From positions 597,501 through 661,500 of the forward strand of contig CP060759.1 of NCBI GenBank assembly GCA_023205875.1: a stretch of DNA of 64,000 nucleotides, read 5' to 3'. Of the stretch, positions 4,338 to 56,745 are shown in pieces; the first letter of the stretch is position 1; every line of letters begins with the position of its first letter. The notes beneath the pieces are model-generated. The model made no database searches and was not told the origin of the DNA. It was given only the letters and a program-made list of their open reading frames with translations. Source of the DNA: Chloropicon primus. Its lineage: Eukaryota; Chlorophyta; Chloropicophyceae; Chloropicales; Chloropicaceae. Position numbers and translations under genes: made by a program.

Positions 4338-4370
4338 GTCGAGTGAGATATCAATGGAAAGCTCGTGAGC
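4338..4370 (+). promoter_or_regulatory. Recurrent upstream motif, copy a
   Basis: The core reads GAGATATCAATGGAAAGCTC followed by GTGAG. It aligns without gaps to copies at 24568-24600, 28763-28796, 54065-54097 and 56670-56703. It lies 215 bp upstream of the RanBP1 start, in the same orientation. Confidence 0.5.
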
Positions 4371-4546
4371 AGGCCCTTGTCACGGTGACCTCCTCGTCCT
4401 CCTCGTCAACCGCCTTCCGTCCGAACCCTTGGCCCAAAGGTCCTTCGCTCTCCGTTTCCAGATCGATCGATCGTGCGGCGGAAGAACACCCGATCAAAGT
4501 GAGAGCCGAGGAGCAGAAAAAAATTTCGCAGACGGCGGCGACGAGA

Positions 4547-4550
<4 letters not shown>

Positions 4551-4576
<26 letters not shown>
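4551..4576 (+). repeat. (AG)n microsatellite in the RanBP1 5' leader
   Basis: A perfect AG tract of about 13 units ends 8 bp before the RanBP1 start codon. Similar GA/CT tracts lie upstream of, or in introns of, many other genes in this window. Confidence 0.9.
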
Positions 4577-4577
<1 letters not shown>

Positions 4578-4584
4578 AGTGATC

Positions 4585-5650
4585 ATGGCGGAGGAACCAA
4601 CGACGAAGGGGGAGAAGGAGGAGGAGACCAAGGTGAGTTCGACCGCAAAGGAACGTGCCGTCAGTCGAAATGGTTTCGTCGTCTTCTTTTACCGTTTCAC
4701 AGAGAGAGAGAGAGAGAGAGAGACGGTTTGGTTTGGTTTGGTTTGGTTTGTGGCATGGAGAGTGGAGTGTCTCGATCGTGGTGGTGTCTTGGCGAGGGAG
4801 AGGGAGCGAGTGGACTGGACTCAGAGGATTTCGAGGCTGAGGTGTTGTTCGCTTCGTGGAGGGGTTGGTATTGACTCTGCTGTGTTTGTGTTTGTGGTTT
4901 TTTTTTTTGGTTTGGGTGGTGGACCTCCTGCAGGTTGCGCCTACTCCTATCTTTGGACAGGGCTCGACTTTCGCTGGGACGGGATTCAGTGGCTTTAGCA
5001 TGAACTCGGGAGGCTTCGCCTCGAGCGGGACGAGCGAGGCGTCCGGTGGAACCGCCGCGGCTGCGAACCCGGAGGAGGAGTGCCAGGCGGAGTTCAAGCC
5101 GGTGGTTCAGCTCGAGAAGGCGGAGGTGACAACCGGGGAGGAGTCCGAGGAAGTGAAGTTGGAGTACAAAGCCAAGCTGTACCGGTACGACTTTGAGAAG
5201 CAGGAGTGGAAGGAGAGGGGCGTTGGACCTTGCAGGATTCTAGAAGACAAGAAAACCAAGAAGACCAGGGTCCTCATGAGACGTGACAAGCTCCATAAGA
5301 TTTGCGCAAACTTCCTCATCATGCCTGGAACGGCCCTGCAGAACCACCAGGGCAACGACAAGACTTGGGTCTGGTCGACGCCAGACTTCTCGGAGGAGGA
5401 GATGAAGACCGAGCTTTTCACGATCAGGTTCGGGACCGTCGAGAAGGCCAACGAGTTCAAGGAGGCCTTTGAGGCGGGCATGAAAGCGAACGAGGAGCTT
5501 GGAATTCTGGACGAGTCGAAGGAGGCTGAGTCGAAGGAGGAGGGCGAGGAGAAGAAGAAGGAGGACGGGGCGGACGAACTGGCAAAGGGCCTTGCCGACG
5601 TGAAGGTAGAGGGGGAGGAGAAGAAGGAGGAAGAGGAGAGCAAAGAATAA
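4585..5650 (+). CDS. RANBP1: Ran-binding protein 1 (RanBD) with an FG-bearing N-terminus
   Basis: Two exons are called, 4585-4632 and 4934-5650, with a 301-bp phase-0 GT-AG intron. They encode 254 aa. The RanBD follows an acidic segment and contains the conserved WKERGVGPCRIL, RVLMRRDKLHKICAN and TWVWSTPDFSEE stretches, which match RanBP1 better than other RanBD proteins. RanBP1 binds Ran-GTP and helps RanGAP dissociate and hydrolyse export complexes on the cytoplasmic side. The N-terminus, encoded from the start of exon 2, has a nucleoporin-like PIFGQ and further Phe/Gly-rich sequence, which is unusual for RanBP1 and recalls Nup50/Nup2-type proteins. The C-terminal tail is Glu/Lys-rich. The start is the first ATG after the AG tract, and exon 1 supplies only 16 residues. 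Confidence 0.88.
4699..4750 (+). repeat. (GA)n followed by (GTTTG)5 in the RanBP1 intron
   Basis: An AG/GA tract at about 4701-4723 is followed by five GTTTG pentamers (about 4725-4750). Both lie inside the RanBP1 intron. Confidence 0.85.
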
Positions 5651-5805
5651 GTGAGCAGGATGGAATGCCTTTGAAAAACACCTCGGCTTCTTTAATATAC
5701 AATCACAAAAGAAACTTTTTGCCACCCCTGGAGTACTCTCCTGTTTCTTGCATGGGACGCCTTTACCGCGCACGAGGGGCTGCCTTCGAAAAACGCCTCG
5801 AGACT

Positions 5806-5847
<42 letters not shown>

Positions 5848-6166
5848 TTGTGTGTGTATGTGTGCACCTTTCCCACTCCGTTCGAAGAAGGACCCCATAC
5901 GCCGACAGGTCGGATTCGATCGTAGGATCAAAAGGACAGGTTCCAAGGGAGGCCGACCATCTTTTGGCATTCAAGTCCCTTGCGAACACGCCCACCCACA
6001 CCCACACCCACGAACACACGCTCCTCCTTCCCCCCTCCTTCCCCTCCTTCCCAAGGCGAAATTTGTTCCTAGTTTGGAGAGTAGTTTAAATCAATCGTAC
6101 AGGTGAGAGAGAGAGAGAGAAGGAGACAGCGTCGGGAGGGAGAGGAGCGTCGCAGTGCGAGGCAAG
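5651..6166. other. Intergenic region RanBP1 3' end to CLUAP1 5' end
   Basis: These 516 bp contain a CT tract running into a TG tract (about 5808-5864), an ACCCAC-type tract (about 5991-6012) and a GA tract (6104-6122) close to the CLUAP1 start. Two similar short blocks, TTTGAAAAACACCTCGGCTT near 5669 and a relative near 5784, look like a diverged direct repeat. No gene was recognised. Confidence 0.6.
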
Positions 6167-7542
6167 ATGTCTTTCCGGGAGTTGAGGAACTTCACGGAGA
6201 CCATGAGGTGCCTTGGGTATCCTCGGTTGATCAGCATGGAAAACTTCCGGACGCCAAACTTTGAACTCGTGGCAGACCTGTTGTACTGGCTCTTGAAGAG
6301 GTGAGTGAGAGAGGAGAGAGGGAGCGGAGGGTGGAGACCAAAGGTGAGAGCTTTGTGGACTGACGATGGCCTTGCTTCTTGTCACCGCTCAGGTACGACC
6401 CGGAGATATCCATATCGGACGAGATCAGCACGGAAAGCGACCGCGTCTTGTTCCTCAAGTCGACGGCAAAGATTATGTTGTCCAAAGCGAGGGTGAAGCT
6501 GAACTTGAAGCGGTTGTACGCAGCGGACGGACACGCGGTGAGGGAGCTCCTGAAGATAGCAAACATGCTCCGGGATGCGACGACGAAGGCCGAAGCGCAG
6601 AACGAAGCGGAAGCGGTGGAGGTCCTCGACCTGGACAGGAAGAGCTTAGACCCCAAGCAGGTGAGGGAGCACGCCACGGACATCACGCGGTGTGGTGCTT
6701 TCCTTTACGACGTGCTGCAGAACGAGATTCAGAGCAGGGACATGCGGTACAGGGCGGTGAACAGCAACATCGATTTGGAAGAAATCGAGAGGGCGGTGCA
6801 GAACTCCATTCAGTCTGTGCGGGAGAACATCACCAACCTCGACATCCAGCTGGACGAGCTGGAGAAGGACAAGTCAAACTTGGAGTCCAAGATAGAAAAG
6901 AGGAGGGCAGAGCTCGAGAGGAGCGAGAAGCGCCTGAGTACTCTGCAGAGCGTGCGGCCGGCTTACATGGACGAGTACGAGCAGCTGCAGGCCAAGATGC
7001 AAGACCTTTACACAAAGTACTTGGAGAGACACAGGAACCTGGAGTACCTCGAGAGTCAGCTCGAGCTGTACAGGTCCAAGGAGCAGAAGGAGATTGACGA
7101 GGCGAGCAAGAAGATCCGAAAGATGCAGAGGCGTCTTCAGGACGAGGAGATGAGGATTCTCAGGGGCGAAGTCGCCATCGAGGACAATGAGCTTGACGAC
7201 GACGACATCACAGACATTACAGAAGACAGTGGCTTCCTCAGCCCCGGGGCTCAGTCCACGCTGCAGTCCACGAGGAGGAGGTCCATCGTGGAAACGCAGC
7301 TTCCGGGGGATTTGGTGAGCTCTGCGGAGAAGACTGTCCAAGGGAGCCTTGCGATTAACGACGATGATTCGGACGAGGACGCCTTTTCCGATCTCACCGA
7401 AGCCTCTGAGGACAGCGACACGCACCTCTCTGTCAACGACGAGGACGGCCTTGACGAGGACGACTTGATTGAGGAAGAGGACGATGCGGACATTCTGAGC
7501 GGGGATGACTTCACGACGGAAGGAAGCGATAACGAGTTTTGA
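6167..7542 (+). CDS. CLUAP1: Clusterin-associated protein 1 / IFT38, intraflagellar transport subunit
   Basis: Exons 6167-6300 and 6393-7542 (a 92-bp intron splitting an Arg codon) give 427 aa, close to the animal protein (about 413). The N-terminus [20 protein letters not shown], then [20 protein letters not shown], is diagnostic of the CLUAP1/DYF-3/IFT38 calponin-like N-terminal domain. Residues of about 180-310 form a long coiled coil, and the C-terminus is Asp/Glu-rich and disordered. IFT38 is a peripheral IFT-B subunit required to build cilia. Its presence means the lineage retains, or recently retained, a flagellated stage. The gene ends 39 bp from the stop of the convergent kinesin gene. 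A TGTAA polyadenylation-type signal lies at 7552-7556. Confidence 0.95.
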
Positions 7543-7551
7543 TTGTCTCTT

Positions 7552-7556
7552 TGTAA
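7552..7556 (+). terminator. TGTAA polyadenylation-type signal of CLUAP1
   Basis: TGTAA, the usual chlorophyte poly(A) signal, begins 9 bp after the CLUAP1 stop. Similar signals follow the glycine-rich gene (34231 and 34240), TGD1 (60265), ITPase and PiT. Confidence 0.4.
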
Positions 7557-7581
7557 TGAATTTACCAAAATATTAAATTCT

Positions 7582-9975
7582 TTAGCTCCACTTTGGCTTC
7601 TCCGGACTGGACGACTTGAAGTTTGCCGCCGACAATGGCCGGCGAGTTGGGACTGCTGCCGCTGACTTTCTGGCCACTGCGCTTGCAGGCCTCTTCTCCA
7701 CGGAGAGTCTCTTGTTCTCGTCGGACTGCTTCCTGACGCGGGACCGCAGCCTCTCGATCTCCGCGTCTTTGGCGCTTGTGTTCGTTTGATTCTTCTTCGC
7801 CTGCCCGAGCTCGCACGTCGCTACCCGAGTTGCAAACCTGAGCGTGCTCACGGTTTCACTGGCATTGTCCTTCTCAGGCGCAATGTGGCTCAGCATCAAA
7901 ACCTTGCTACTTCCGCTCATCGATTCGGCCAAGAGATGGGTGAGCTTGCTGTTTCTAAATGGAACGTGCTTCTTCTTCTTCGATGCAAGCGCTTGGATGA
8001 CATCCCCAAGGGCGCTCAGACTCTTGTTAATGCTCTGAGCTTCCTTCAACCTTTCTCCGGTGGCTTGCGACCTTCCCACTCGCTCGCTTCCGGCGAGATC
8101 GATGAGGTTGACCTTCGCATGAGTCTCCACCCCGTTCAGACGATTGCTCGAGGTGACATTGATGGTGAAGACGCTGTGACTTCGGCTTGATCTCTCGTTC
8201 ATCTTTGTCGCCCCAATCGATCTGTTTTCGTGGCCCTTCTCCATCAACGCCATGACCTCTGGGATGTCGGAGACGCTCATGACTGTGAGACCAGGCACGT
8301 CCACCCCACTTCCTCCTGCGTCGGCGCTACTGCCCCTGATTTCCAGCTTCTTGTCCTTCTTCTGGTCGTCCAGAAGGTCCCTTAGCTGCTCGTTGTAGAT
8401 CTCCAGCATCTGAATCGACACGTCGAAGTCGTGCGTGGCCGAACTCCTTTCGATGTTTCTGAAAAGGTCTTCCACGACCCTCGTGTTGACTCCCCTTTCA
8501 GCGCCTTGGTTGCCGGTCATCGTGTGCGTCTTTCCACTGCCGGTCTGACCGTACGCGAAAAGGCAGACGTTGTAGCCATCAAGAGCGCTCTGAACAAATG
8601 GGGAGATCTCGTTCCAGACCTTTTCCTGCGTCGAGGATTCGTCGAAAACTTTCTCAAAAGCAAAGTTGGTGTTGCTTCCTTCGGACAACCAAATTTTGTC
8701 CTTGCCGAAATCCGAGGTGCAGTCCACGTTCACGATGGACGCCTCGGTGCTCCCTGTCGCGCCAGGCGGTCTGACGCGCGTGTACACCCTGATGTTGCCC
8801 TTGAGGTCAAGGATCTCGTTGTTCAGCCTCGCGTTCTCCGCCTGGATAGTACTGTAGTCCTTCACAACGGCATACATGGGCTCAATGTGGTGTTGGAGCT
8901 GCGACAACTCGATCTGAAAGGCCGTGAACGCGAGGCTGGCGTCCATTTTGATCGATTTGCATATTTTCTTTGCTTCGCTTGCCTCCCCCTTCAATGCTTT
9001 CACTTTCGCCAAGACTCTCGCGTTGGTTTCCTGCCTGTCCTTCCTCACGTCCTCCAATTCGGCCTCAGCCTTTGCCCTTTCAGTTTCAGCGGCAGCTTTC
9101 TCCTCCGCGTCCCTTTTCATCTCGGCGACCCGTTCGCCATTCTCCAGGCTTTCCGCGGCAGCCTTCTTTGACTGCTCGAGGGATGCCCTCAGCCTCTTCA
9201 GCTCTGTCTCCTTCTTCAGAAGACGCCTTTCGTATTCTGAGGTCAAGCTGCTCAGCACGGACTCGATCACGGGACCCAAAGTCTCGACTGTCCTTTCAGG
9301 CGATACGCTGCCGGCAGATGCTGGCGAGATGGAGAGGGGGCTGCTCCCCATTGTCGCGTTCAGCAAATTCGTGCACTGCTGCATGAGCCTAGTCACAGAG
9401 ACTGCTGCCTGCACGCCGCGGCCTTTGGCGTTCTTTATGGCTGAAGCACGGGCCAAGGGTAGAGACTCCGGGAGCCCCGGCGTCTGGAACCCCGGAGTCT
9501 TCACGTCGCCGCAGTCGTCACCACTGACCTCGCTCCTCAAGGGAGTCATGTTGAGGCTCGACTTGCTGCTTCCCGAGGTGCCAACCTCTCCAGGTTTCCT
9601 CTCGGCGTTCCACAGGGACCTGAGACGCAAAATTGTGTTCACCACGGGATGACCCCTCGCCGCATCCAGGTCCGCTAGGTGGAAGAGGTCGTCCCTCTCG
9701 AGGCCGACACTTAGGCAACCGTCAAAGAAGTTGTCAAAGTTGTACGTCTTGGGGAGCGCCTCCGCGGGCTGCGCCGTCTGTCTATACACCTGCACGTTCA
9801 AAAGCCGGCACAGCACCTCGCCACTCCTCAAGCTCTCGCAGAATGCCGCGTCATCCTCCGCGGGCACCTCTACCCCGATCGCCTCCCGAACAAACTCCGC
9901 TGCCTCCTTCCTCCTCATCCGGCTCTCCTGCGCGGTGGTCTCCCTCATTCCCTCCACCGAGAGACTGTAGAGCAT
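7582..9975 (-). CDS. Kinesin-14 with N-terminal CH domain (KCH-like)
   Basis: This is a single-exon gene of 797 aa from the ATG at 9975; the frame stays open further upstream only with non-ATG codons. A calponin-homology domain occupies about residues 20-125 (FCESLRSGEVLCRLLN, KTYNFDNFFDGCLSVGL), a coiled coil follows to about 375, and the kinesin motor starts at NIRVYTRVRPP. The motor has the P-loop GQTGSGKTHT, switch I NERSSRSHS and switch II DLAGSE. The neck upstream of the motor (ENARLNNEILDLKGNIRVY) marks it as kinesin-14, the minus-end-directed class. A CH domain plus central motor is the plant KCH architecture, which links actin and microtubules. A short basic tail follows the motor. 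The gene is convergent with CLUAP1 and divergent from SKI2. Confidence 0.9.
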   Translation of the reverse strand: MLYSLSVEGMRETTAQESRMRRKEAAEFVREAIGVEVPAEDDAAFCESLRSGEVLCRLLNVQVYRQTAQPAEALPKTYNFDNFFDGCLSVGLERDDLFHLADLDAARGHPVVNTILRLRSLWNAERKPGEVGTSGSSKSSLNMTPLRSEVSGDDCGDVKTPGFQTPGLPESLPLARASAIKNAKGRGVQAAVSVTRLMQQCTNLLNATMGSSPLSISPASAGSVSPERTVETLGPVIESVLSSLTSEYERRLLKKETELKRLRASLEQSKKAAAESLENGERVAEMKRDAEEKAAAETERAKAEAELEDVRKDRQETNARVLAKVKALKGEASEAKKICKSIKMDASLAFTAFQIELSQLQHHIEPMYAVVKDYSTIQAENARLNNEILDLKGNIRVYTRVRPPGATGSTEASIVNVDCTSDFGKDKIWLSEGSNTNFAFEKVFDESSTQEKVWNEISPFVQSALDGYNVCLFAYGQTGSGKTHTMTGNQGAERGVNTRVVEDLFRNIERSSATHDFDVSIQMLEIYNEQLRDLLDDQKKDKKLEIRGSSADAGGSGVDVPGLTVMSVSDIPEVMALMEKGHENRSIGATKMNERSSRSHSVFTINVTSSNRLNGVETHAKVNLIDLAGSERVGRSQATGERLKEAQSINKSLSALGDVIQALASKKKKHVPFRNSKLTHLLAESMSGSSKVLMLSHIAPEKDNASETVSTLRFATRVATCELGQAKKNQTNTSAKDAEIERLRSRVRKQSDENKRLSVEKRPASAVARKSAAAVPTRRPLSAANFKSSSPEKPKWS

Positions 9976-10389
9976 TCTCTTCTCCGTCCTGTTGTCCTGT
10001 CGTGCCCGAACTGCGCACACCACTCCCACTCGCCTCGCTCAAAGGAAGGTCTCCTTGACGACCAGCTGTCGTTTTTCGAGTTTGGGTTCCCCTCCCCAAC
10101 CCCAACGGCCACCCACGACCCCAGTGGAGGGATGAGGATGGAGAAGGGAACGAGGGCACAAGGGGGAAGGTGATGGAGGCGAAGAAAGCAAGGTTTGGCA
10201 GTATTGGAATCCTCGTCGCTTGCTCTTTCGATCGGTGTGCGTTACGATAGGTTTTGCGCCGGCTTCGACGACGAGGTGTCAGGCATCAACACACTGGCAA
10301 TTGGGCGAGAGAGGGGAGGGAGAGAGGTGCAGGTTGGGTGAGAGAGGGAGGGGAGCGTTCGTTGAGGGTCTTCGATCCGGAGCACCATC
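9976..10389. promoter_or_regulatory. Divergent kinesin/SKI2 promoter region
   Basis: These 414 bp lie between two start codons. On the minus strand at 10213-10245, CCGATCGAAAGAGC lies about 235 bp upstream of the kinesin ATG and has AAAACCT about 19 bp before the GAAAG. It may be a weak copy of the recurrent upstream motif. GA-rich sequence precedes the SKI2 start. No other gene was seen. Confidence 0.4.
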
Positions 10390-13300
10390 ATGGGATTTGC
10401 TGGCGGCGAAGGAAAACTCCTGATGGACGAGTACGAGGCCAAGTACGTGACGCTTCGCTCGAGCAGGGAGGTTGTGGAGGGTCTCGTTGCCGTGCCCAGG
10501 GGGCGGGAGACTGGAAGCGACGAGGGGTTGGGTTGGAGAGCGGGGAGCGGGGAGTACAACGAGACGTTGTGGTGCTTTCCTTCGGCCCCGACGACGAGCG
10601 TGGAGGCCGTGTACGACCTGAGGACGAGGAAATTGACGTCGTCCGAGACGACTTCGTACTCTGGGAACGGAGGCCAAGGCGGTGCGGGCGCGGGATCTGG
10701 GCTCAACGCCGCGCTCGACCTGGCGGTGAGAGAGGAGGAGGGGACGACGAGGCACGGGAGGACGAATGCAGTGTCGACTTCCCGCCGAACCTTCGCTTCT
10801 GCGACATCGACAAGCGTGGGAGATACGAGTCGGTGGGTCGACGATCTGAAGCGGGCCGTGGCCAAGGCGGACGTTCAGCTCTTCGCCCAGGCCCCTGGCC
10901 TCAGGAGGAGCGTCTGGTGCACCGATGCGGCCGAGGTGGAGGATTTCGAGGCAGTCGAAGCGGTGCTGGAGGCGGAGAAGAGCGCCGCCGCAGTGGGAAC
11001 GGACGACGAGGCGGGGGGCGACGAGGCGAGGGAGAACGCCGCGGTGGCATCCTTTGGCGACGTGTTCACGAACAAGAATTTCTCCACGGCTCTGGAGGAC
11101 TTCCTTGGGGCCAACGACGAGGCAGAGGAGGACGAGGGAGAATACGACGACGATGCGGCCTCGTCCGAGGCGAGCAGGCGGAAGCAAGTTGCTTACAACG
11201 TGCAAAGCGATCCCACCCTTCTGGGCGACGATTCTGAATTCGAGAAGCTCATGGACCACCTGGACAAGCATGATGACTTTTGGTACCAAGCAAAGCAGGC
11301 GGGCAAGAGCAAAGACAAGAAGCGTTGGGCCGTGTCCGAGAGGATTGAGAACCTGGACGAGGCGTACAAAAAAGCGGTGACTGACCCTGCCATGACCTTT
11401 CCGTTCGAGTTGGATGGATTCCAGAAGGAGGCGATTATCCACTTGGAAAGGAACGAGAGCGTCTTTGTTGCGGCGCACACCTCGGCAGGAAAGACGGTGG
11501 TGGCTGAGTACGCGTTTGCTTTGGCGAGCAAGCATTGCAGCAGGGCCGTGTACACGTCGCCGATCAAAACGATTTCCAATCAGAAATTCAGGGACTTCAC
11601 GGACAATGGGTTTGATGTCGGCCTGCTCACCGGGGACGTCAGCATCAAGCCTGAGGCGTCCTCCCTGATTATGACGACCGAAATTCTGCGAAGCATGCTT
11701 TACAGGGGCGCAAACATGATTCGCGACATCGAGTGGGTCATCTTCGATGAGGTCCATTACGTCAATGACATCGAACGCGGAGTGGTCTGGGAGGAGGTGA
11801 TCATCATGCTGCCGGAGACAGTTTCGATCGTGTGTCTGTCTGCAACCGTGCCAAATGTTGTTGAGTTTGCCGACTGGATTGGGCGCACGAAGAGGCAAAA
11901 CATATACATCACGGGCACCATGAAAAGGCCCGTACCACTGGAGCACAGTGTCTACTACAAGGAGGAGCTTTACAAGGTCTGCGAAGGGCCTTCATTCAAT
12001 CCGGCTGGGTACAAGAAGCTCTCCAGTGCTCACAAGGAGGCGACTGCGCCGAAACCGATTGGCGCGTCATCCAAGAGCAAAACCCAGCAGGGAGGGTCAA
12101 ACAAGCAGCAGAACAACAGCCAGCACAACCAGAACAAACGAGGGCAGCAACACCCGGGCCCGAGGTCAAGTAGCAGACGGGGGCCGAACAGCCAGCACAG
12201 GCCCCCCCAGAGGAGTCAGCAGCAGAGATTTTCGAAGGGTCATAGCTTGAATACGGAGCGCACCCAGCTCGGCAAGCTTCTCGCCATCCTCAAGAAGGAG
12301 GACCTCCTGCCCACGATTATTTTTGCGTTCTCAAAGAAGAGGTGCGATCTCCTGGCAGAGTACATTAGGTCGAGGGACATGACGACGGCGGAGGAAAAAG
12401 GCGAAATTCACAACTTTTGCAGCAGGTCTTTCAGCCGGCTCACCGGCACGGACAGAAGCTTGCCGCAGATTAACCGCGTGCAGGACCTCTTGAAGAAGGG
12501 GATTGGGGTTCATCACTCGGGCCTGCTTCCCATTGTGAGGGAGGTGGTCGAGATGCTTTTCTGCAAGGGCCTGGTGAAAATTCTCTTCTCTACAGAGACG
12601 TTTGCAATGGGTGTGAACGCCCCCGCCCGCGCAGTTGTTTTCCATTCCCTGAGGAAGCATGACGGCCAGAGCTTTAGAACTTTGTTGTCCGGGGAGTATA
12701 CTCAGATGGCGGGAAGGGCGGGAAGGAGGGGCCTGGATGACTTTGGGACCGTTATCATCGCTTGCTGGGACGGGATTCCGGGAGAGCTGGAGCTGAAGAA
12801 ATTGATCACGGGCTCCGCCACGAGGCTGCAAAGCCAGTTTCGGTTGACGTACAACATGATTTTGAACCTGCTGAGAGTGGACGAGATGAAGATTGAGGAC
12901 ATGATCAGGAGATCCTTTGGGGAGTTCCACGCCCAGGCTGCCCTTCCGAACACCAAAGCTCTGCTCAAGAAGGCCAGCAAGGCTTGCACAAGCTTGGACA
13001 TGGTCGAATGGCCTGTCGACAACGACTCGTTCAAGGAGACAGAGGTTCACGAGTATACCGCTTGTGTGAACGAGGCCAGCAAGATTGGGAGGTACATCAT
13101 GGGCAAGGTCCAGGAAAGTCACTCGGTTTCGACAGTGCTGTCGGTGGGCAGGCCAGTCCTTTACTATCAAAATTCTGCAGGAGATGTCCCTCAGATCGCC
13201 ATCATCTGCGACATGAAGAACGCTCCTCAAAAGTTTGGTGCGCTGGGGAAAGCGAAGAAGAAACTCGTTCTCTTCGTGCTTCACAACAAGTCTATGCCAA

Positions 13301-15666: not shown

Positions 15667-15678
15667 AAAGGTGAGGCA

Positions 15679-16986: not shown

Positions 16987-17004
16987 AGACACGGGAAGGG
17001 GGTG

Positions 17005-28434: not shown

Positions 28435-29721
28435 GGCGGTTCCCTCGACCGGTTCGGTTCTCTCGAGCGGCAAACGCGCCGCTTCACTTAGAGGACGAGA
28501 CGACCAGCAACCGTTTCAATAACAAACCGAAAAAAAAGAAAGAAAAAAAGGCTCACTCCTCTTCAAGACTCGAGCGACCGGAAGAGCAGTCCCATGCTCG
28601 CCGCGAGGACCGACGTCTCTCGAGGCCCGATAGGCGCGCAACCCCCCCCTCCCTCCCCGCCGCGTCGTGGACCCGTCCCGTCCCACGCGGACACAAGACA
28701 AAGGACCCGACGTTTGCCACCCGACGTTTGCCTCGTTCCTCGACCGTCCGGGCTCGAAACCGGTCGAGCGAGGTATCGGTGGAAAGCCCGCGAGACGCGC
28801 TTTCCCGTGGTCAGGTCGGACCAGGTCCCCTCGGACGCCTCTTTCTTCTCTCGCTCTCTCTCCTTCGTTCGCCAATGCCAATCAATCGCTCCCTTCCTCT
28901 CCCTTTTCTAAGAAGAGAAATAGGCCTCGTGTTTTCCCTCGTAAATGTAAATTCTCTTGTCCTCTCAAATCTATTGCGTGAGACGTTAGTCGTCGAAATG
29001 TTCGATCCGAGAGTGCTAATCCCTTTGACGAGATTTGGAAATATCGGTCCTCATGGATCGCAATCCACGGTGGTTTACAAGATTATCCCATGACAAAAGG
29101 ACAAAGGAGAGAAGGAGGTTCCTCTTTTGTCCTCTTGTCTTCGTTCTCTTGCTCTTGTTCGTTTTGAATCCTTCGTCTCGAGGAAAAACGCGCACGTGAC
29201 ACAACTCACTTCAACCTTTTCTTTCTTTCGATGGAGGAGGAGATGATCCCGCGCCAAGCCCAGGACGATTGGATCGATTCGATGATTGATTGGGGTCCGT
29301 TCCGTTTCGTTTCGTTCACATTGAAGCACCCTGGGTGGGAGCGTTGCTTCGAAAGATCCGAGCTTTCGCCACTCCTGCCCCCCGCCCCACCCCCGTCTCT
29401 CTCTCTCTCTCTCCGGTTGCCAAGCCTAGAAACCATCACCACCACTGACGCAGAAAGAGAGAAAGAGAGAAAGAGGGGTCTCCGGAGAAGGAGCTCGGTA
29501 TCCTCGACACCACCGCCACCGCCACCACCACCGCCATCCTCATCCTCTCTTGTGTCAAGTCAGTCGGTCTCTCCGGAACGAGGAGGGGGAAAACCCGCGG
29601 GAAAACGTTTCCCATTCTTCTTTCTTGGACTTTTTTGAAAGCTTTGGATCCACCAAAAAAAGGCGGGGACAGTCTTGGCGCCCTTTGTGACAGCCCTGCC
29701 AAGAGGGAGGGGGACACGAGG
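28435..29721. other. 1.3-kb gene-poor stretch
   Basis: The longest gap in the window. It contains an A-rich run (about 28530-28550), a copy of the recurrent upstream motif (28763-28796, plus), C-rich sequence around 28640 and CT tracts at about 28840-28862 and 29397-29415. Composition becomes more AT-rich between 28860 and 29300. I see no conserved coding frame, tRNA-like TPsiC arm or recognisable snRNA. A non-coding RNA gene, a non-coding first exon of the glycine-rich gene or a rapidly evolving small gene remain possible. Confidence 0.5.
28763..28796 (+). promoter_or_regulatory. Recurrent upstream motif, copy c
   Basis: Core GAGGTATCGGTGGAAAGCCC followed by GCGAGA, preceded by GAAACCGGTCGAGC. 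It is the only copy without a recognised start codon within 250 bp downstream in its orientation; the next is at 29722. Confidence 0.5.
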
Positions 29722-40097: not shown

Positions 40098-40499
40098 CGT
40101 CGCTGCCTCGTCTGTCGAGAGCTCCCTTCAAAATTGGCAAGACAGAGGAGAGAAGAGGAGAGGAGATGATGGTGGTGGTGGTGGTGGAGGTGGAGGTGGA
40201 GCCAATGGGGTGATGCAGGGGTGGCAGGTGGGCACCGTGGTCTCTTCCTCTTCGTGATCTTTACTAGGAGCCCTCACTTGGCGCCGGTGGGGGGAGGGAG
40301 AGGAAAGGAAGGTGATTGATGATGACGGGCGACAAGGGGTCAGGGGGTGGTAAGAGCGTGGAATCGACCGCGGGATCCGCGAGCCAGTGGTCTTGCCGCC
40401 CAATCTCTGATCAGCCTCGTGGTGGCTTTCCGTGACTTTCGATGATTACACAAGCGAAAACTCTGAGAACTCAAAGCTCTTTTCGAAGAAGTGCAGCCT
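40098..40499. other. Intergenic region ITPase 3' end to CHL1 5' end
   Basis: 402 bp with a GGTGGT-type triplet run (about 40170-40200) and a TGTAA signal on the minus strand about 50 bp past the ITPase stop (TTACA near 40445). No gene was recognised. Confidence 0.55.
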
Positions 40500-45355: not shown

Positions 45356-45854
45356 GCTGCAGCAGCCAAGCAAGCAAACAATGAAGGAGAAAGAGTTTTT
45401 CCGTTTCAGTCCTCGTCACTCTGGCATTCCTTTCAAGCGAGGAAGGGCTCTTCGGAAATATCGCGAGGAGAATGATCCGCCGACAAGGCTTGCTCTCGTC
45501 CTTCCCCTCGTCCTCGTCGTCCGAAACTCACCTCGCGCTCTCCTTCTCCTGAGTCCAGTCCTCCTTCGGAGTTTGCAGAGTTTTGCTGCTGCTGGCTGGT
45601 CGGCTCGAGGGAGGACGACTGACCGACACCGACACGCGACGACTTTGGCGACGGGGGCGAGGGGGAGAGGACGGAAGGGGATGGCTGGGCGAAACTACGA
45701 CTCGAGGTCGCTCGCTGGACGCCTCGGTTGTTGGTTTTGACGACCTGGTGAGGATTCTGTCGAGCGAGAGGAAACAAAAACGAGCGCTTCGAGGAGGATG
45801 GAGAGGTAGAGTGACCTGACCTGACCTGACCTGACCTGGTGGGTTGTGTGCGGC
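45356..45854. promoter_or_regulatory. Divergent CorA/HEMK2 promoter region
   Basis: 499 bp. It holds a perfect TGACC pentamer array of five units (45812-45836) that ends 18 bp before the HEMK2 start. No other gene was recognised. Confidence 0.55.
45812..45836 (+). repeat. (TGACC)5 pentamer array
   Basis: Five perfect TGACC units just upstream of the HEMK2 ATG. Confidence 0.9.
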
Positions 45855-49571: not shown

Positions 49572-50033
49572 GATCGCTCCCGCTCTTTCTTTCTTACTTT
49601 TTTTGCGGAAAATTTTGGCATGCAGTATATCTATTGAATTAAGCTTTCGATCTCCCTCCCCCCCTCCCCGCGGTCCACTCCACCCCCTCTTTGAGCTCCC
49701 ACCAAGGAGGCAGCGATTTCCTCGGACTTTGAAGACGACTCAGATCCTTTCCCCGCGCAAAGTGGGGCACCCCATATCGAATAGAACCGCAACACCATCC
49801 CTCCACCTCCACCCCTCGTGAAGCTCCCACCATTCCTCATGACTCCTCCTCCATCCTTGCTCCATCCTTGCTCCATCCTTCCTAGGAAAGGAAAAAAAAA
49901 ATGAATCTTCCCGCCTTTTTTAGAGGAATACGATCGAGGGACAGGCAGGAGAGAGAGAAAGAGAGAAGAGGAGCGCTCGAGGCCATTGAGAGGTCTTAGC
50001 GCGGAGGAAGCGAAGTGTCTTTCTTGGACAGAA
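49572..50033. other. Intergenic region before the CEP70-like gene
   Basis: 462 bp. It has an A-rich run (about 49888-49901), a repeated CTCCATCCTTG (about 49849-49878) and a GA tract at about 49950-49969. No gene was recognised. Confidence 0.5.
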
Positions 50034-52562
50034 ATGGCGGAGGAAAAGGCCAAGGCGCTTGAGCTAGCAGAAGCGCAAACTCCCGCGATATTTGGGATCG
50101 AGGAGCCGCTCCAAGACTCGCCCATCTACTTGGGAGAGGATGGGACGCCGGTGTCGGGGTCTCTGCTTGAGGTGAGCTCGCCATCCGTGTCCGCTTTGAC
50201 GACGGGGGAGACCGCGCCGCCGACCGAGGAGAGGAAGGACGTTCAAAAAGGCGAGGAAAGCGGCGAGATGCCGACTCTGAAGAACCTGAGAGCTTCCGGG
50301 AAGGACAGCAAAGTCGTTATCGAGGACTTTGACTTCCACTCGGAGCAGCTGAGAGCGGAGCTCAAGACGTTCAAGAGCTCTCTGATGTCCTTTTCCAGCA
50401 GCGCGTCGGCGACCCCGAGCCCCCCGACCGTGGAACGCGTCTACAAGCAGCCTGAAATCAACCCCCTCCACAGCAGGGGCCCCCTTCGCGAGAGCAGCGA
50501 CGAGAACGAGGCGAGCTCGGACTACAGCAGCCGTCCGGAGAGCCCGAAGACCGTGGCATCCTCTGCGGCTCCCTCCCTGGTGAGCTCACCTGCCAGGGGC
50601 AACAAGGACTACTCGCTCGATAGACTGAGCAAGGTGCTGAGGCACAACGGGTTTGGGCTTCACTTTGTTGGGGGAGACAGCTCCGCCAAGGTAAACGGAA
50701 TCCTTTCGGCCTTCTTCCAGGTCATGAACCAGTACGAGAGGAGGGGCAAGCTGATCCAGGAGATGATTGCCAGCAACGAGCTTTCGGCCAAGCAGGAGCA
50801 GAGGCTGGAGTCCAAAGCGAGGAAGATGAAGGTAGAAAGGGACGAGGCGAGAAGGGACCTGAATTTGCTCTCCGAGAAATTCGAGGCCAAGCTGAGCCGC
50901 TCGATGAACGAAAAGCGCAACGCGTCAGAGGGGAAGCTCAAGCTCGGGACGGAGAAAGGAAAGATCCAGAGCAAGCTCACCCACTTGGAGCACATCGTCA
51001 GGGCGAGAGAGACTGAGATAGATCAGCTGAAGAACAAGATGAGGGAGAAAGCCGAGAGGGACGAGAGAAGGCAGAGGAGGGACAGGGAGATTTACGACAA
51101 GCTCAGGCACAAGGTGTCTCGCCACAGCTCGGGCAGCGTTTCCGCCATCGTGAGAGAGCTGAGAGCTGTCGAGATTGTCGGCATCTATGAATCACAGAGA
51201 GAAGTTCTCGAGAGCGAATTGACGGCACTCAGGACGGACCTGCACGCCACCAAAGCTCGATTGGACGAGAAAGAGAAGTACATCCTTAACAAGGACATGG
51301 CTGGGAACTGGAAGACTCCGGCCGAGGGCGAGATACTCAATTCCCTTGCTCAGTCGGAGAAGGTGGCAGCAGACGCTGTCCGCAAACAGGCTGAAGTCGA
51401 GTCGCGAGCCGCTGAAGCTGCCAAGGAGGCGGCCAAGCAGATTGCCGAGGAGCAGCGGAAGAACGAGATCCTCGCGGAGGAGAACGCCAGCTTGATACTG
51501 GAGTTGGAGTCGAGGCCTCAGCTCAAGGACATCCAGGCTGCACAGAGGCAGATCGAAATACTCGAGAGGAAGGTGGCTTCCCTGAATGACAAGGAGAACT
51601 TCCCTCAGGACTTGAAGAGACAAATGTCCAAGGCTGCTTCGGCGAAGATCCGGAAAGACAGGAAGCTCTTCCAGCTCGGACTGCACAAGGTGCAGAATCT
51701 GCCACACAGCGTCCTTGTGGAGATTGTCCAGGACGCTTGCTTGAAGGTGGAGCTGGGTGACCCCACTGCCCTTGCGCAGTCCCTATCGAAGCTACTGAGG
51801 ATCGTTGCCGCGGTTCCAAGGATGGAGAGCTTTGTGGGTGCCGTCTGCGAGATCAGTCTGCAGGACGGAATCAATTACATCCCAAAGGACGTGAAGGATA
51901 CGCCCGAGCCAAAGGACGTGCCCCGGATCTTGCAGCACTGGCTCACGGAGCTCAAGAAGCTGCACGATCTGAATTTGCTGTACAACGGCCTCGTCGGGGA
52001 GCTGCAGCACAGGTCGAGCGCGACCAAGCCCAAGGGCAAGACCACGAACGGCATCATGGCGGCTGTGAAGGACATGATCGTAGCCGAACGGGCATACCAC
52101 AACATGAAAGCTACCTTTGACAATGCCGGGCAGATCATGAAGGACAACCCCGAGGCGCTCCTGTCGAAGATAGTCGCCCACTTCCAGAGATTGTTTGGAT
52201 GCAAAAACCTCGAAGGCACGTTCGCTGCGATCAACCAGACCTACCTGTCCCTGACCGAGAGCAAGAACTTCCTGAAGGCTCTCAGAGATTTGGTGGGCCT
52301 GGACAGAAGCGCCGGAATCAACGCTTGCCTCGCCAGGGTGAGGCAGCTCGTGCTCCTGCAAGCCCAAAAGTACGCCAAGGTTCTGGATGATGATGGAGCT
52401 GAGAAGGAGGAGGAGCAGGCGGAGGCAGAGGATCAGGTGGAGGCAGAGGAAAAGGAGGAAGAAGAGGAGGAAGAAGAGGAAGAGGAAGAGGAAGCGGGTC
52501 CGCAAGAGACGTTTCACACCCCACTGCCGGTACCAGCATCTGGGAAAAAACAGCGAGAGTAA
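50034..52562 (+). CDS. CEP70-like centrosomal/basal-body coiled-coil protein
   Basis: Single exon, 842 aa from the ATG at 50034; the upstream frame begins only at a TTG. After a disordered N-terminus (about 200 residues), LSKVLRHNGFGLHFVGGDSS and YERRGKLIQEMIASNELSAK resemble the first conserved block of CEP70. A long coiled coil follows (about 240-560). A C-terminal helical domain with LPHSVLVEIVQDACLKVELG and LLRIVAAVPRMESFVGAVCE matches the CEP70 C-terminal block. CEP70 is a gamma-tubulin-interacting centrosome protein conserved with cilia. The C-terminal tail has a long Glu-rich run, and the last residues are basic. The assignment rests on motif resemblance, not on a database search. Confidence 0.68.
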   Translation: MAEEKAKALELAEAQTPAIFGIEEPLQDSPIYLGEDGTPVSGSLLEVSSPSVSALTTGETAPPTEERKDVQKGEESGEMPTLKNLRASGKDSKVVIEDFDFHSEQLRAELKTFKSSLMSFSSSASATPSPPTVERVYKQPEINPLHSRGPLRESSDENEASSDYSSRPESPKTVASSAAPSLVSSPARGNKDYSLDRLSKVLRHNGFGLHFVGGDSSAKVNGILSAFFQVMNQYERRGKLIQEMIASNELSAKQEQRLESKARKMKVERDEARRDLNLLSEKFEAKLSRSMNEKRNASEGKLKLGTEKGKIQSKLTHLEHIVRARETEIDQLKNKMREKAERDERRQRRDREIYDKLRHKVSRHSSGSVSAIVRELRAVEIVGIYESQREVLESELTALRTDLHATKARLDEKEKYILNKDMAGNWKTPAEGEILNSLAQSEKVAADAVRKQAEVESRAAEAAKEAAKQIAEEQRKNEILAEENASLILELESRPQLKDIQAAQRQIEILERKVASLNDKENFPQDLKRQMSKAASAKIRKDRKLFQLGLHKVQNLPHSVLVEIVQDACLKVELGDPTALAQSLSKLLRIVAAVPRMESFVGAVCEISLQDGINYIPKDVKDTPEPKDVPRILQHWLTELKKLHDLNLLYNGLVGELQHRSSATKPKGKTTNGIMAAVKDMIVAERAYHNMKATFDNAGQIMKDNPEALLSKIVAHFQRLFGCKNLEGTFAAINQTYLSLTESKNFLKALRDLVGLDRSAGINACLARVRQLVLLQAQKYAKVLDDDGAEKEEEQAEAEDQVEAEEKEEEEEEEEEEEEEAGPQETFHTPLPVPASGKKQRE

Positions 52563-52592
52563 TGAAATGCAAGTACTTATATTTTACCATGT

Positions 52593-53828
52593 TTATTGTA
52601 CACGCCTGAGGTTAGACATCAGATGGGAGGACACGATGGGAGAAGATAGCTTTTCGAACATCCCGATGCCTTCCAAAGTCTCCCAATGGATCGCAAACTT
52701 CATTGGCTGACCGCCTTCGCCCTTGAAACCAATGAGTTCCACAGGGCACGACGTGGGATTCTTCATGCCGAACTCGGCAATCATCCCCTCTCCACGAGCC
52801 CTCAGAAAAACCGTCAGACCATCGTCCTCAGAGACCCCTTCCCGCCACTCAACTCCCTCCGGCATCACGAACTCCTCGTCGACATGGTCTTGCGTCTCCA
52901 GATCGAGCTGAAAAGTGACGGAGCCGGACCAGATGTGAGGGTCCCCAGTTAGCTTGCGCGCGACCAAAAGCTTGCTGTCATCAGAAACGCGCAAAGAAAC
53001 GAATTCAACGCCGTGGCTCGCATAGCTTCCCTTGTAGATGCCCTCCAGAATGTGCTTCTGCCCCCCCGCCTGGGGCTCCAGCCGTTTGAAGTCCGCATGC
53101 TCCTCCGCATGGCTTTTGCCTACCTCGGCGAGCCACAAGTCGAAGGTCAAGCTCTCGTTCAGGTAATGCAAGTAGAAGCTGTGAAGCCTTTCGTCCTGGC
53201 TCTCGCCGTCGCGGTTCGAATCCTGCACGAAGGCGTTCATGATCGAGACTTTCCTATTCCTCCTCTCGAACCGGCCGTGGTCGCAGTCTCCCTTGCAGAC
53301 GAAGCGAAAGCCTGATGAGACCCAGATGAACTTGCACTCGTGGGGACAGTGACTCGTGCTGTCCGGGGATTCATCGAAGGGAATGACCGAGCGGTGGCAA
53401 GACATGGTGGCGTCCCCGCCCCCATCGAAGCTCACCTCGAAGAAAGGCACGCTCTTCAGGACGGGGTCGCTCACCCTGTCAGCCAGAAGGCTCGAGCCAG
53501 AGATTTTGGGTGGCTCAGCTGTCACGTGCACGAGGCTCCCGTACGGCCCTTGGCCTTGCCCGACCCACATCCCGATCAGGGGCCCCCATGGCTCCATCAC
53601 GTTCACCCACAGGTCCTTCCACGTTCTCTGGTTCCACTCCTCGGGCCTGGTTACGTCTTCGCAAAGCATCTGCAGACATCTTTTCCGCCACACGTCGCTT
53701 CCCTCGACCAGAACGAAGAGCCTCTTGGAGCAGGTCGACAGGGAGCAGAGGTCACGCGTGTCCAGATAGCTCAGCACAATCTCCACCACGTCCGACACCA
53801 GATCCTCAAACCCTACCACGCTTTCCAT
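52593..53828 (-). CDS. F-box protein, FBXO31-like
   Basis: Single exon, 411 aa from the ATG at 53828. The F-box occupies residues of about 10-50 (VSDVVEIVLSYLDTRDLCSL, STCSKRLFVLVEGSDVWRKR). A C-terminal beta-rich module carries IGMWVGQGQGPYGSLVHV and VARKLTGDPHIWSGSVTF, which resemble the substrate-binding region of FBXO31 (its KITGDPNVPAGEITF-like segment). As an F-box protein it is likely an SCF ubiquitin-ligase substrate receptor. A Cys/His-containing segment (HCPHECKFIWVSSGFRFVCK, then CDH) lies in the middle and might bind metal. The gene ends 30 bp from the convergent CEP70-like gene. Confidence 0.75.
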   Translation of the reverse strand: MESVVGFEDLVSDVVEIVLSYLDTRDLCSLSTCSKRLFVLVEGSDVWRKRCLQMLCEDVTRPEEWNQRTWKDLWVNVMEPWGPLIGMWVGQGQGPYGSLVHVTAEPPKISGSSLLADRVSDPVLKSVPFFEVSFDGGGDATMSCHRSVIPFDESPDSTSHCPHECKFIWVSSGFRFVCKGDCDHGRFERRNRKVSIMNAFVQDSNRDGESQDERLHSFYLHYLNESLTFDLWLAEVGKSHAEEHADFKRLEPQAGGQKHILEGIYKGSYASHGVEFVSLRVSDDSKLLVARKLTGDPHIWSGSVTFQLDLETQDHVDEEFVMPEGVEWREGVSEDDGLTVFLRARGEGMIAEFGMKNPTSCPVELIGFKGEGGQPMKFAIHWETLEGIGMFEKLSSPIVSSHLMSNLRRVQ

Positions 53829-54236
53829 CACCAAGAACCTTTCCTTCCCATCCACAACATCACGTCCATTCAGCTCCTCCACGACCTCGCCTTGGCGTCA
53901 AAACTTTTCAACAAAAGGGTCGAACGAAAGAGCACGAGATGAAGCTTCCGCCCGTCTCGCCCCCCACCGCCTTCGTCCCCGTTATCTCGACCCGAACTGT
54001 GAGGTGTCCGACGCCGAGCGGCAATCCCTCTCCTCTCCAGTTGGAGCACCAAGGCCAAACCCCCTCAACTGAGGTATCGTTCGAAAGCCCTTGACACGTA
54101 CTATCGATCGAACACCTTTTCCCCTTCCGTCCCTTCCCTCCTTGGTCCTCCGCTCCTTCCGACGCACGCCTCTGCTGTCCGTGGAGGAGCAGAGAGGGGT
54201 GGCTTGCTTTAGCGTTGGCGTGGCCAGGGGGAAGCC
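53829..54236. promoter_or_regulatory. Divergent F-box/SRR1 promoter region
   Basis: 408 bp between two starts. It carries a copy of the recurrent upstream motif at 54065-54097 in plus orientation, 139 bp before the SRR1 ATG, followed by an ATCGATCG element near 54110. No other gene was seen. Confidence 0.6.
54065..54097 (+). promoter_or_regulatory. Recurrent upstream motif, copy d
   Basis: Core GAGGTATCGTTCGAAAGCCC followed by TTGACAC, preceded by AAACCCCC. It is 139 bp upstream of the SRR1 ATG in the same orientation. Confidence 0.5.
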
Positions 54237-55165
54237 ATGGAGGAGGAGGGGTGGGTTGTCGCCGGGGCAGGGAAGAAGTCGTGGAAGAGGAGGAAGGGGA
54301 AGCAAGGTGCGGGTTGCCGTGGAGCGAAGCGGAGGCCGTGTGTTCCCAAACAGGAGGAGATCTCGTGGGATCCTGCCGTTCTCGACGCTCCTGTGGAAGA
54401 AGGGGGTGTCAGGGCGCTGATCAGCAGGACGAAGGATGCCGTGGCCCTGGTGCGCCAGTCCAAGATCTTCGGTCACTTGAAGCGAGAGATCTTCCTCGCG
54501 GAGGACGGCGGCGAGGAGGATACCCTCGTGCGGAACCTGGGGGAGGTGGAGGAGCTGGTTGTGTATGGTCTAGGCTCCCTGGAGAACGGCCCGCCGGCTT
54601 GCAGGTACCAGTTCGCCCTGGCGGTGCTCCTGGCGGAGGAGATCAGGAAAACGTCGAGCAAGTTTGGCCAAGTCCTGTTCTTCGACCCGGCCTTCACCGC
54701 GTACGACAGGAGGGCCATCGAGAGCGAGAGCTCCGAGTTCCGAGTGTTGAGAGAAAACGAGAACTGCGCGAGGAGGACATCGAAGAAGACTCTGTTTTAC
54801 ATGCCACACTGCGAGGCTTGCCTTTACGACTCTCTCCTGAAAGCCAACTGGACCCGGAGCCAGCTGCCAAACCTGGTAAGTCTCCGTGCAAAGCGCTGTC
54901 TGACTTGCGCCCTTCGCTCACTAACCGATTGCCAACTTGCCAACAGGTGATTCTCGGGAATTCTTTCGCCAGCTACAAGTCCATTTGGGGGGTGTCGTCT
55001 GAGCACAAGCCTGATCCCCCGGCCTACGTCGAGCTGGTTGCCGCTGCAGAGTCCTCCCAAGAAGTACCGGTGCCAGACTTCAACTTCACGGAGGTCTCCG
55101 CGTTCAACAACATGAGCTTTCATTTCTTCCCGAGCGCCTCCGTGGCTCACATGATGGTGCGGTGA
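54237..55165 (+). CDS. SRR1: SRR1-like protein (sensitivity to red light reduced)
   Basis: Exons 54237-54875 and 54947-55165 with a 71-bp phase-0 intron give 285 aa. The SRR1 domain is clear: LVVYGLGSLENGPPACRYQF, VLFFDPAFTAYDRRAIESES, FYMPHCEACLYDSLLKANW and VILGNSFASYKS. In plants SRR1 acts in phytochrome B signalling and the circadian clock; animal and fungal relatives affect heme synthesis and circadian regulation. No catalytic activity is established. The N-terminal 60 residues are basic and divergent. The recurrent upstream motif lies 139 bp before the start. The stop is 59 bp from the stop of the convergent JmjC gene. Confidence 0.93.
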
Positions 55166-55224
55166 GGACAGGGGGCCCGGCTTGTACAATATAAAACTAG
55201 GTATTTCGATGAAGGTTTGTCCTT

Positions 55225-56450
55225 TTACTTTTTCGCGGGCCTCAAGTTCGCGAAGAGGTTCACCAACCCCTGGACGTTCGAGAGAGCGTTGTAAAAATTT
55301 CTCATCACGGTGATCGAGGGGGCGAGGGAGACGGCATAGTGCCACCAGCCATCTGGAATCAGGAGGGTCTCCCCTTCCTCCAGAATGGCGTAGTGCATCC
55401 GAGCCTCCTTGAATCTGGGGTACTTCTCGACGCTTTCGGCATCCAGCGGGTCGATCGGCGACTGCGTCGTGGCTTCCCCTTCCAGAGGGTAAAGCAGGCT
55501 GGCGTCGTTCGTCGTGTCTGGGGGAAACAGGAGAAAGAGCTTCCTTCCCTTGATCTGGGCCAACCAGCCGTGGGCGCGATGGGCATCGTAGTGCAGCCTC
55601 GTGATGTTTCCAGCCGGACCCATGAAGACCTTGTTCAGCAGAATGTCCGTGTCGCGAACCCAGTGAGGTGCGGCCCTCACCCCATTCTTGCTGGAGATGG
55701 CCTTGTCGATCTCCTGGCGAAAGCAAGAGACGCGTCAGTCTAAGTGAGAGAGAGAGAGAGAGAAGAGGTCGCAATTCACCCCTAGTGGAGCCAACGTACC
55801 TGCAGGATCATCCTCGTGTGGTCCTCGATCCATGGAGGCGACGCGATGTCGTCCACGAGCTCTGCGTGATCCTTGAAGGCGTGCCAGCCGTTGAGATACA
55901 AAGGAACGCCCTCGCTTTCCTTGTGGCCGAACCTCCTCATGTACTCCACGTACTGCGAGAGAGTGGTCTTCACGCTCGCTTGGGGCCTTCCGCTTTCCCT
56001 GTCTTTCACTCTCGCCGGCGCCCTGTCGTTGGCGATGACCACCTGGCCAGGGTAAGCCTCGGAGAAGAACTCGGGGGTCCACTCCCGGGCCTTCCACCCC
56101 GCCAGTGAGTTCTTCACGATCAGCGGTTTGGACGCCAAGAGGTGCTTCTCGGTCACTTCCTCCATCTTCGGATGATCTTCCCGGCGCTCGATGAGGCAAC
56201 CCTTCCCGAGGCCCAAAAACCTCACGCACTCGCTCTCCTTGAAAGACCACCCGCACCGCTCAGCAAAGCCTAAGAACGCCTTGTACTCGGGCGTCATCGA
56301 CTTGGGCCTCGTTCTCCTCGGCTCCTCTTGGCCGCAGGAGGAGGGTTGTTCCCTCTCTCCCGCCACGACTACCCCATCCCCCTTCTCCTTCACGGACGCC
56401 CCTCGACTCAGCAGCCCGGACAACGTATCGATGCTCACGCGCTCCGCCAT
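55225..56450 (-). CDS. JmjC/cupin_8 dioxygenase
   Basis: Two exons on the minus strand (55800-56450 and 55225-55713), joined by an 86-bp phase-0 intron that carries a GA tract, give 379 aa. The C-terminal half is a JmjC/cupin_8 fold. Iron ligands are His258 and Asp260 (LHYDAHRAHGWLAQIKGRKL) and the distal His342 (DGWWHYAVSL). GRKLFLLFPP and NGWHAF further fit the JMJD5/FIH/TYW5-type branch. These Fe(II)/2-oxoglutarate enzymes hydroxylate protein side chains or RNA; the substrate here is unknown. All three metal ligands are present, so the enzyme should be active. The N-terminal 150 residues have no recognised domain. The recurrent upstream motif (copy e) lies 220 bp before the start. Confidence 0.85.
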
Positions 56451-56745
56451 CCTCCCGCACCAACCGACCTAAGCCCTTCGTTCGTCTCAACCGCAAACCA
56501 ACCGCCGACTCTCTCCTCCTTCGCCTCCGCCGTTACGTTCCTCCTTCGCGCCAAAAAAAAAAAAAAAGCTGTCGCCTCAAGGGGAGGAGCGACGGTTTCA
56601 CCCTTCGGTGTGTGTGTGAGGAGGCGAGGCGAAGGGGAAGAGGTTTTGGGTGGGACAGAACGGTAGAGCATCTCGCGGGCTTTCGAATGACGTGTCGGTC
56701 GACCAGTTGTGAGGTCCGGAAGAGAGTTTTTGTTCGACGACGAGG
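56451..56745. promoter_or_regulatory. Divergent JmjC/UBZ promoter region
   Basis: 295 bp between two starts. It contains a poly(A) run of 15 (about 56553-56567) and the recurrent upstream motif (56670-56703, minus), which is 220 bp from the JmjC ATG and 43 bp from the zinc-finger gene's ATG. No other gene was seen. Confidence 0.6.
56670..56703 (-). promoter_or_regulatory. Recurrent upstream motif, copy e
   Basis: Minus-strand sequence GACACGTCATTCGAAAGCCC followed by GCGAGATGC, preceded by AACTGGTCGACC. It shares AAC(C/T)GGTCGA and GAAAGCCCGCGAGA with copy c. Confidence 0.5.

Follow-up and report, generated by a model that had tools for sequence, protein, structure and literature searches.

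Does a short block of sequence that recurs upstream of unrelated genes in the green alga Chloropicon primus represent a promoter element, or is it the conserved end of a small dispersed repeat? The question is raised by a 64,000-nucleotide stretch of the strain RCC138 genome (contig 6, positions 597,501-661,500; hereafter the window), in which an initial annotation had noticed five strong and two weak copies of the block and offered both readings. C. primus is described as a tiny marine alga with a compact genome and, on average, less than one intron per gene; for C. roscoffensis, genomes of 60% GC and 19 chromosomes are given (PMC12301720). All seven copies are indeed present, each at its place and on its strand, and the block is the core of a longer element of ~52 bp that is real and widespread in the genome. 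We favour, with moderate confidence and from the evidence of sequence, the reading that it would be an asymmetric promoter element laid out on a lattice of nucleosome length and often serving divergent genes.

Sequence and abundance of the element

The element has the consensus YCAAACC..TTCRAG.GAGG..TC..TCGAAAG.....GAGACG..CTTCC, followed by a pyrimidine tract. In the refined matrix it extends from about -16 to +36 relative to GAGG, with TTCRAG, GAGG..TC, TCGAAAG, GAGACG and TTCC as its strongest positions, and pyrimidines make up 69-82% of each 10-bp bin from +30 to +80 after GAGG. The sites scatter around two sequence flavours, GAGGTATCGATCGAAAGCCC and GAGGGCTCTTTCGAAAGAGC, and inverted GAAAG/CTTTC arms lie ~20 bp apart inside the element. 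When the window was searched with the 17-letter core GAGGTATCGNTCGAAAG at up to three mismatches, six matches were found against 0.55 expected, and none of 100 shuffles reached six. One of these matches (20,471, + strand) falls within coding sequence and is probably due to chance; the copies at 56,670, 10,213 and 58,594 were picked up by the longer matrix only, not by the core.

The element is not confined to the window. Across the whole genome (17,584,162 bp in 20 contigs), with reversed patterns as controls, the core at up to two mismatches has 375 matches (control 8), a looser 24-place pattern has 1,661 (control 12) and CGAAAGN5GAGACG has 1,349 (control 285). More detailed counts were made over 264 kb, comprising the window and other loci, among which L009-L028 had been picked for holding the core. 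A first matrix was built from 19 non-redundant copies, three of 22 having been omitted as presumed chance matches; one of the omitted three, at 58,875 on the - strand, later scored 28 bits. This matrix gave 63 matches above 20 bits, while the reversed sequence gave three above 8 bits and none above 10 bits. The refined matrix gave 84 matches above 11 bits and three in the control. Sixty-one non-redundant sites with mutually unrelated flanks carry the element, and 47 of them were used for an alignment (A1) and a sequence-only covariance model.

Placement and spacing of the copies

For gene calling, a codon model was trained on the sequence itself; it yields approximate single-exon models and does not see introns in 5′ untranslated regions (UTRs). 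All 81 sites above 18 bits lie outside the gene models trimmed to an ATG, although these models cover 61% of the 264 kb; the same is true for all 12 such sites in the window, where the models cover 72%. The sites are also unevenly distributed among intergenic regions. Because L009-L028 had been picked for holding the core, regions with a seed match were removed from the count. In the remaining, bias-free subset the element occurs in 7/11 divergent and 6/41 tandem regions and in none of the 39 convergent ones (divergent versus tandem, P = 0.0025; tandem versus convergent, P = 0.026). The window alone shows the same order (divergent 6/7, tandem 3/16, convergent 0/6; P = 0.005 for divergent versus tandem, Fisher's exact test), as does a looser cut from which no region was removed (29/40, 10/55 and 1/48, respectively). 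A core-promoter or transcription-factor element, as the initial annotation had proposed, is therefore upheld in kind: the copies are intergenic, on the 5′ side of genes and absent from the 39 convergent regions, they adjoin unrelated genes, and ATG triplets are depleted from the element onwards (see below).

The copies are spaced in a regular manner, which the initial annotation had not noticed, both as tandem repetition and as facing pairs. Genome-wide, CGAAAGN5GAG is followed by CGAAAG on the same strand at 165-195 bp in 124 cases (control 4), compared with 22 (control 9) at 134-164 bp and 24 (control 6) at 196-226 bp. The median spacing is 181 bp (quartiles 177-185) among the 100 listed of the 124 pairs, and ~181 bases is the length usually taken up by one nucleosome. 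Same-strand neighbours in the 264 kb (sites above 5 bits) likewise cluster at 155-192 bp. Among the 27 listed pairs in this range, flank identity is below 0.40, about the level of unrelated sequence, in 15; the remaining pairs are partly or wholly duplications. An array of seven copies lies at L009:4358-5376 (-), with a period of 170 bp and mostly near-identical units.

Copies on opposite strands almost always face each other. Among the 36 opposite-strand pairs up to 800 bp apart in the 264 kb (sites above 8 bits), 35 are facing, though single arrays contribute many of the pairs and in six, at 8-47 bp, the two sites overlap. Two such overlaps, with copies offset by ~46 bp, occur at L028:4055-4137 and L022:4717-4799, and the GAAAG/CTTTC arms, ~20 bp apart inside the element, make them possible. 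Facing distances were searched genome-wide at 264-325 and 389-419 bp only: from GAGG to GAGG, 17 pairs were found at 264-294 bp and 18 at 295-325 bp (control 0), and none at 389-419 bp. The median facing distance is 296 bp (quartiles 289-305, n = 35). Back-to-back pairs, counted in one matching range (gap 215-245 bp), number two. If the reference point is moved to 57 bp after GAGG, the facing distance becomes 296 - 2 x 57, or about 181 bp, and tandem and facing spacing coincide; this agreement follows from a calculation with two medians and does not test the lattice.

Direction of transcription and alternative readings

Observed ATG counts, compared with those expected from base composition, were used as a proxy for start sites in regions of up to 1,300 bp, with gene models scoring at least 40 and sites above 18 bits; raw first-ATG distances are misleading until normalised in this way. 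Forward-strand ATG reaches its expected level or slightly more over the three 60-bp bins just behind the element (37 observed, 31.4 expected). Directly ahead it falls to 1/7.7 in the first bin and 4/13.9 in the second, and later bins stay below 0.6 except one at 1.06; over the first 110 bp ahead the count is 4/17.8. For the whole region ahead the forward triplet is depleted (52/117.5) and the reverse triplet is not (109/106.2). A simple repeat in L018 accounts for 28 of the 109 reverse triplets; with L018 left out, the totals are 50/111.8 and 81/95.5, respectively. In tandem regions, the seven arrays that point at a start and have no start codon behind them show 22/38.0 ahead and 24/16.2 behind. 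Since the most upstream in-frame ATG was chosen as the start, some in-frame ATGs are removed and depletion near starts is somewhat inflated, but this does not readily explain a drop at the element, far from most starts. As forward ATG drops directly ahead of the element and not just behind it, transcription probably starts at the element. The composition ahead of the motif at first resembled coding sequence, which may, we think, stem at least partly from the tracts of facing partners.

From these observations a model may be drawn. A putative sequence-specific factor would bind the asymmetric ~52-bp element, and forward transcription would probably start in the pyrimidine tract just downstream, about 40-60 bp after GAGG. 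The gene in the opposite direction would often begin 30-150 bp behind the element, so one copy could serve a divergent pair. With copies at nucleosome-length steps (181 bp in tandem, about 296 bp when facing) and a shared lattice point ~57 bp after GAGG, inside the tract, the factor would fix nucleosome boundaries such that each step of an array offers an open start region. We infer that transcription leaves the element forwards, that a second leader lies behind it, and that leaders overlap in facing pairs; in the centre of five facing regions (715 bp) both triplets are low (1/5.5 and 2/5.4). A fuller promoter grammar can be offered tentatively, as an idea that we rate as possible and by no means as probable: each linker of an intergenic array would have its own start unit, divergent genes would use facing units with leaders overlapping in antisense, and evolution would have shaped promoter sequence together with nucleosome spacing as a single unit.

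A number of observations weigh against the promoter-lattice model. The gene starts rest on a custom single-exon caller that misses first exons. In L017, one site (6078) falls partly within a gene model when that model is left untrimmed, and the single convergent region with sites under the looser cut adjoins a doubtful gene model. Distances to the start ahead are not anchored. The initial annotation had placed four strong copies 139-227 bp before a start in the same orientation, and for the first ATGs ahead in the window this stands; over the 264 kb, a fixed distance fails, as 8 of 27 arrays lie at 140-270 bp and 7.6 are expected from sliding the arrays (P = 0.50). Forward leaders of ~100-990 bp, often overlapping in antisense, are implied by this lack of anchoring. 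Forward ATG is also low beyond ~196 bp behind the element (12/20.2 over six bins), the reverse triplet is somewhat low right ahead as well (25/38.2 in the first 110 bp), and three arrays in tandem regions point away from the start, compared with seven towards it. In single-array divergent regions, the strip between copies has ATG at 1/5.7 on the strand of the gene behind and at 6/3.7 on the forward strand (four strips, 499 bp). As to spacing, a second lattice step is not clearly enriched, with 25 pairs (control 6) at 348-378 bp, like the adjacent bins; 43 same-strand pairs (control 9) lie at 259-289 bp, some of which visibly arise from the palindromic core of facing partners; and some 181-bp pairs, kept in the genome-wide counts, are plain duplications (L013, L014 and the seven-copy array in L009).

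In another reading the element, read as its reverse complement, would be the promoter of the gene behind only, 30-150 bp upstream of its ATG, with the forward leaders belonging to other starts. Of 23 arrays, 19 have their backmost site 20-150 bp from the ATG behind; 8.1 are expected, and none of 5,000 slides reaches 19. In these 19 close cases, the stretch between the element and the start behind is poor in ATG on the strand of that gene (6/21.2). A gene family with a HARE-HTH domain also carries the element duplicated together with the gene behind. We nevertheless judge this account rather unlikely, as the forward depletion begins at the element, not in the 180 bp behind it, and the seven tandem arrays without a start codon behind show their ATG deficit ahead. 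Somewhat less probable again is a chromatin organiser that does not set start sites, either a nucleosome-positioning sequence or an insulator between divergent genes, in the manner of yeast general regulatory factors. Nucleosome-length spacing, facing geometry, the preference for divergent regions and the widely varying distances to starts ahead all agree with such a role. The abrupt way in which ATG becomes scarce at the element speaks against it, as it suggests that transcription starts there.

A dispersed repeat or transposon end is far less probable than either, even though there is a subset of sites for which dispersal is evident. Single-linkage clustering joins 17 of the 81 sites into one cluster through homology of 110 bp or more. 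Several of the 17 have between 400 and over 1,100 bp in common, for the most part upstream of GAGG, and the L009 array is itself a tandem repeat. A gene family situated behind the element explains the long homology of these several sites. In L027, the one copy tested, the shared block is an open frame on the other strand with a HARE-HTH match (PF05066, E = 1.9e-10). Members of this dispersed family are found behind the element, on the opposite strand, in L010, L017, L024, L026 and L027, with ~75-98% shared DNA, and offsets between the copies show internal repeats of roughly 267 bp. When L024 or L027 is compared, homology stops 26-160 bp beyond GAGG; for L017 with L019 and L010 it reaches up to 208-251 bp. 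Beyond this end lie genes of different families. Dispersal therefore holds for the HARE-HTH subset, through gene duplication, and not for the 61 sites with mutually unrelated flanks, which refute it as a general account; the absence of sites from all trimmed gene models and from the 39 convergent regions also speaks against it. Accordingly, the suggestion of a small dispersed repeat survives for a minority of sites only, and flanking homology of several hundred bp is confined to part of the 17-site cluster. Least credible, and close to negligible, is a role at the RNA level or as a splice site within 5′ leaders. GTGAGA and GGTATC resemble 5′ splice sites, and the element contains the inverted GAAAG/CTTTC arms. 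Yet the GT of neither donor candidate is conserved (GTGAGA is often GCGAGA or TTGAGA, and T at +4 reaches 31% in the refined matrix), for which a splice donor was rejected; an RNA structure was rejected as well, with no predicted pair and no consensus fold over the 47 aligned sites.

Known systems and individual copies

The nearest kind on record is a core promoter block limited to one lineage, such as the INR+FPR of oomycetes. In Phytophthora infestans, according to PMC3599244, this is a core block of 16-19 nucleotides without a TATA box, the combined motif is present in about 13% of genes, and promoters lacking the block have pyrimidine-rich start regions. The likeness would lie in a lineage-specific block without TATA in a minority of genes; the Chloropicon element differs in its length of ~52 bp, its 181-bp steps, its facing pairs and its bias to divergent regions. 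Its consensus also seems unlike the oomycete INR sequence in an unaligned comparison.

The plant Y patch, an orientation-specific pyrimidine tract near start sites, resembles the oriented tract of the element, except that the Chloropicon tract follows a long specific motif. Yeast Reb1, Abf1 and Rap1 sites are short sequence-specific elements of promoter regions that set nucleosome arrays. Such sites are not known to repeat at one-nucleosome steps, whereas the Chloropicon element is long and repeated at nucleosome-length steps. In Micromonas and Ostreococcus, internucleosomal 5-methylcytosine is reported with nucleosome-length periodicity (PMC12695648); it is a modification of gene bodies, unlike the intergenic sequence motif found here. 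Micromonas introner elements (PMC4815162) are similar in having many dispersed copies in a small green alga. They are described as intronic, however, and the element lies outside gene models (0/81 in trimmed models), does not conserve GT and has mostly unrelated flanks.

The words "promoter", "nucleosome" and "UTR" do not occur in the main text of either Chloropicon genome paper. Nor was a counterpart of nucleosome-step repetition with facing geometry found in the literature searched, which excluded most subscription journals and supplements. The element looks like an undescribed kind of promoter element, with the spacing grammar as its surprising part. Few eukaryotes have known promoter rules, and an element of 52 bp present in well over a thousand copies opens a direct way to study them. 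Should the 181-bp spacing reflect nucleosomes, their phasing would be readable from bare sequence. The element could also aid the annotation of first exons and the design of expression constructs.

Five of the 12 window sites come in addition to the seven noticed initially, namely 45,443 (+), 45,725 (-), 53,914 (+) and two weak ones at 58,875 (-) and 40,275 (-). At E < 0.05 the covariance model finds all but two of the 12, and eight of the 10 found were in its 47-sequence training set. The copy at 4329..4380 (+, GAGG 4345) lies ahead of RanBP1 in a divergent region. At 10206..10257 (-, GAGG 10241; covariance model E = 8.6e-5), the kinesin ATG is 266 bp ahead and the start of a DSHCT/DEAD helicase is 148 bp behind. 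The copy upstream of beta-amylase, at 24558..24609 (-, GAGG 24593), has flanks that partly match the dispersed HARE-HTH block; this copy (24,577) shares short stretches with it. A further strong copy lies at 28754..28805 (+, GAGG 28770). The weak copy at 40240..40291 (-, GAGG 40275), 178 bp before an 832-amino-acid open reading frame (ORF) for a DEAD_2 helicase, is missed by the covariance model. A facing pair, 282 bp apart, is formed by 45427..45478 (+, GAGG 45443; covariance model E = 0.024) on the left and 45690..45741 (-, GAGG 45725) on the right, between the MRS2-like (-) and methyltransferase (+) genes. The copies at 53898..53949 (+, GAGG 53914) and 54055..54106 (+, GAGG 54071) are a tandem pair spaced by 157 bp with unrelated flanks (identity 0.27), the second being 166 bp before the SRR1 ATG. 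The copy at 56661..56712 (-, GAGG 56696) lies 246 bp before the ATG of a 222-amino-acid ORF. Another facing pair consists of 58582..58633 (+, GAGG 58598) and, 277 bp away, the weak copy at 58840..58891 (-, GAGG 58875), which the covariance model misses.

Window genes adjoining the element, by Pfam, are RanBP1, GH14 beta-amylase, kinesin, SRR1, MRS2-like, methyltransferase and DEAD_2 helicase. The first four had been named in the initial annotation and are confirmed; its JmjC gene, the 222-amino-acid ORF, is not, as 55,800-56,450 matches no Pfam family at E ≤ 0.001. Elsewhere the element adjoins genes for CDC45, a BRCT protein, BOP1, P450, VPS9, photolyase, kinases, type III polyketide synthase, JAB, GNAT and others. 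No functional theme is obvious by inspection of Pfam families over the motif genes and 10 of 56 motif-less genes. When 72 upstream regions without the motif were searched for a second one, only simple repeats and codon-like words stood among the top words.

L015 has a divergent gene pair for CDC45 and a BRCT-domain protein, two plausible replication factors; + elements lie at ~4127, 4300 and 4483 and a - element at 4808. The last two copies (L015:4448-4843) are near-identical over ~125 bp as an inverted repeat, judged by eye. Placing the CDC45 start at 4949 is consistent with the five best of 35 relatives: their N-termini align from the first methionine on. The start of the MRS2-like gene in the window, whose N-terminus is variable, is less certain. 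In L028, two protein kinase genes of similar length, at 2891-3931 (-) and 4689-5723 (+), are divergent with an array of elements between them and may be an inverted gene duplication. Two exact matches to the core were found in IMG/VR viral contigs, neither with the remainder of the element; they were taken as chance, and a virus carrying the host motif was rejected. Three identical matches to CGAAAGCTGCAGAGACG at G000:C5:289757, 290666 and 291575, in steps of exactly 909 bp, are probably a tandem repeat unconnected with the element.

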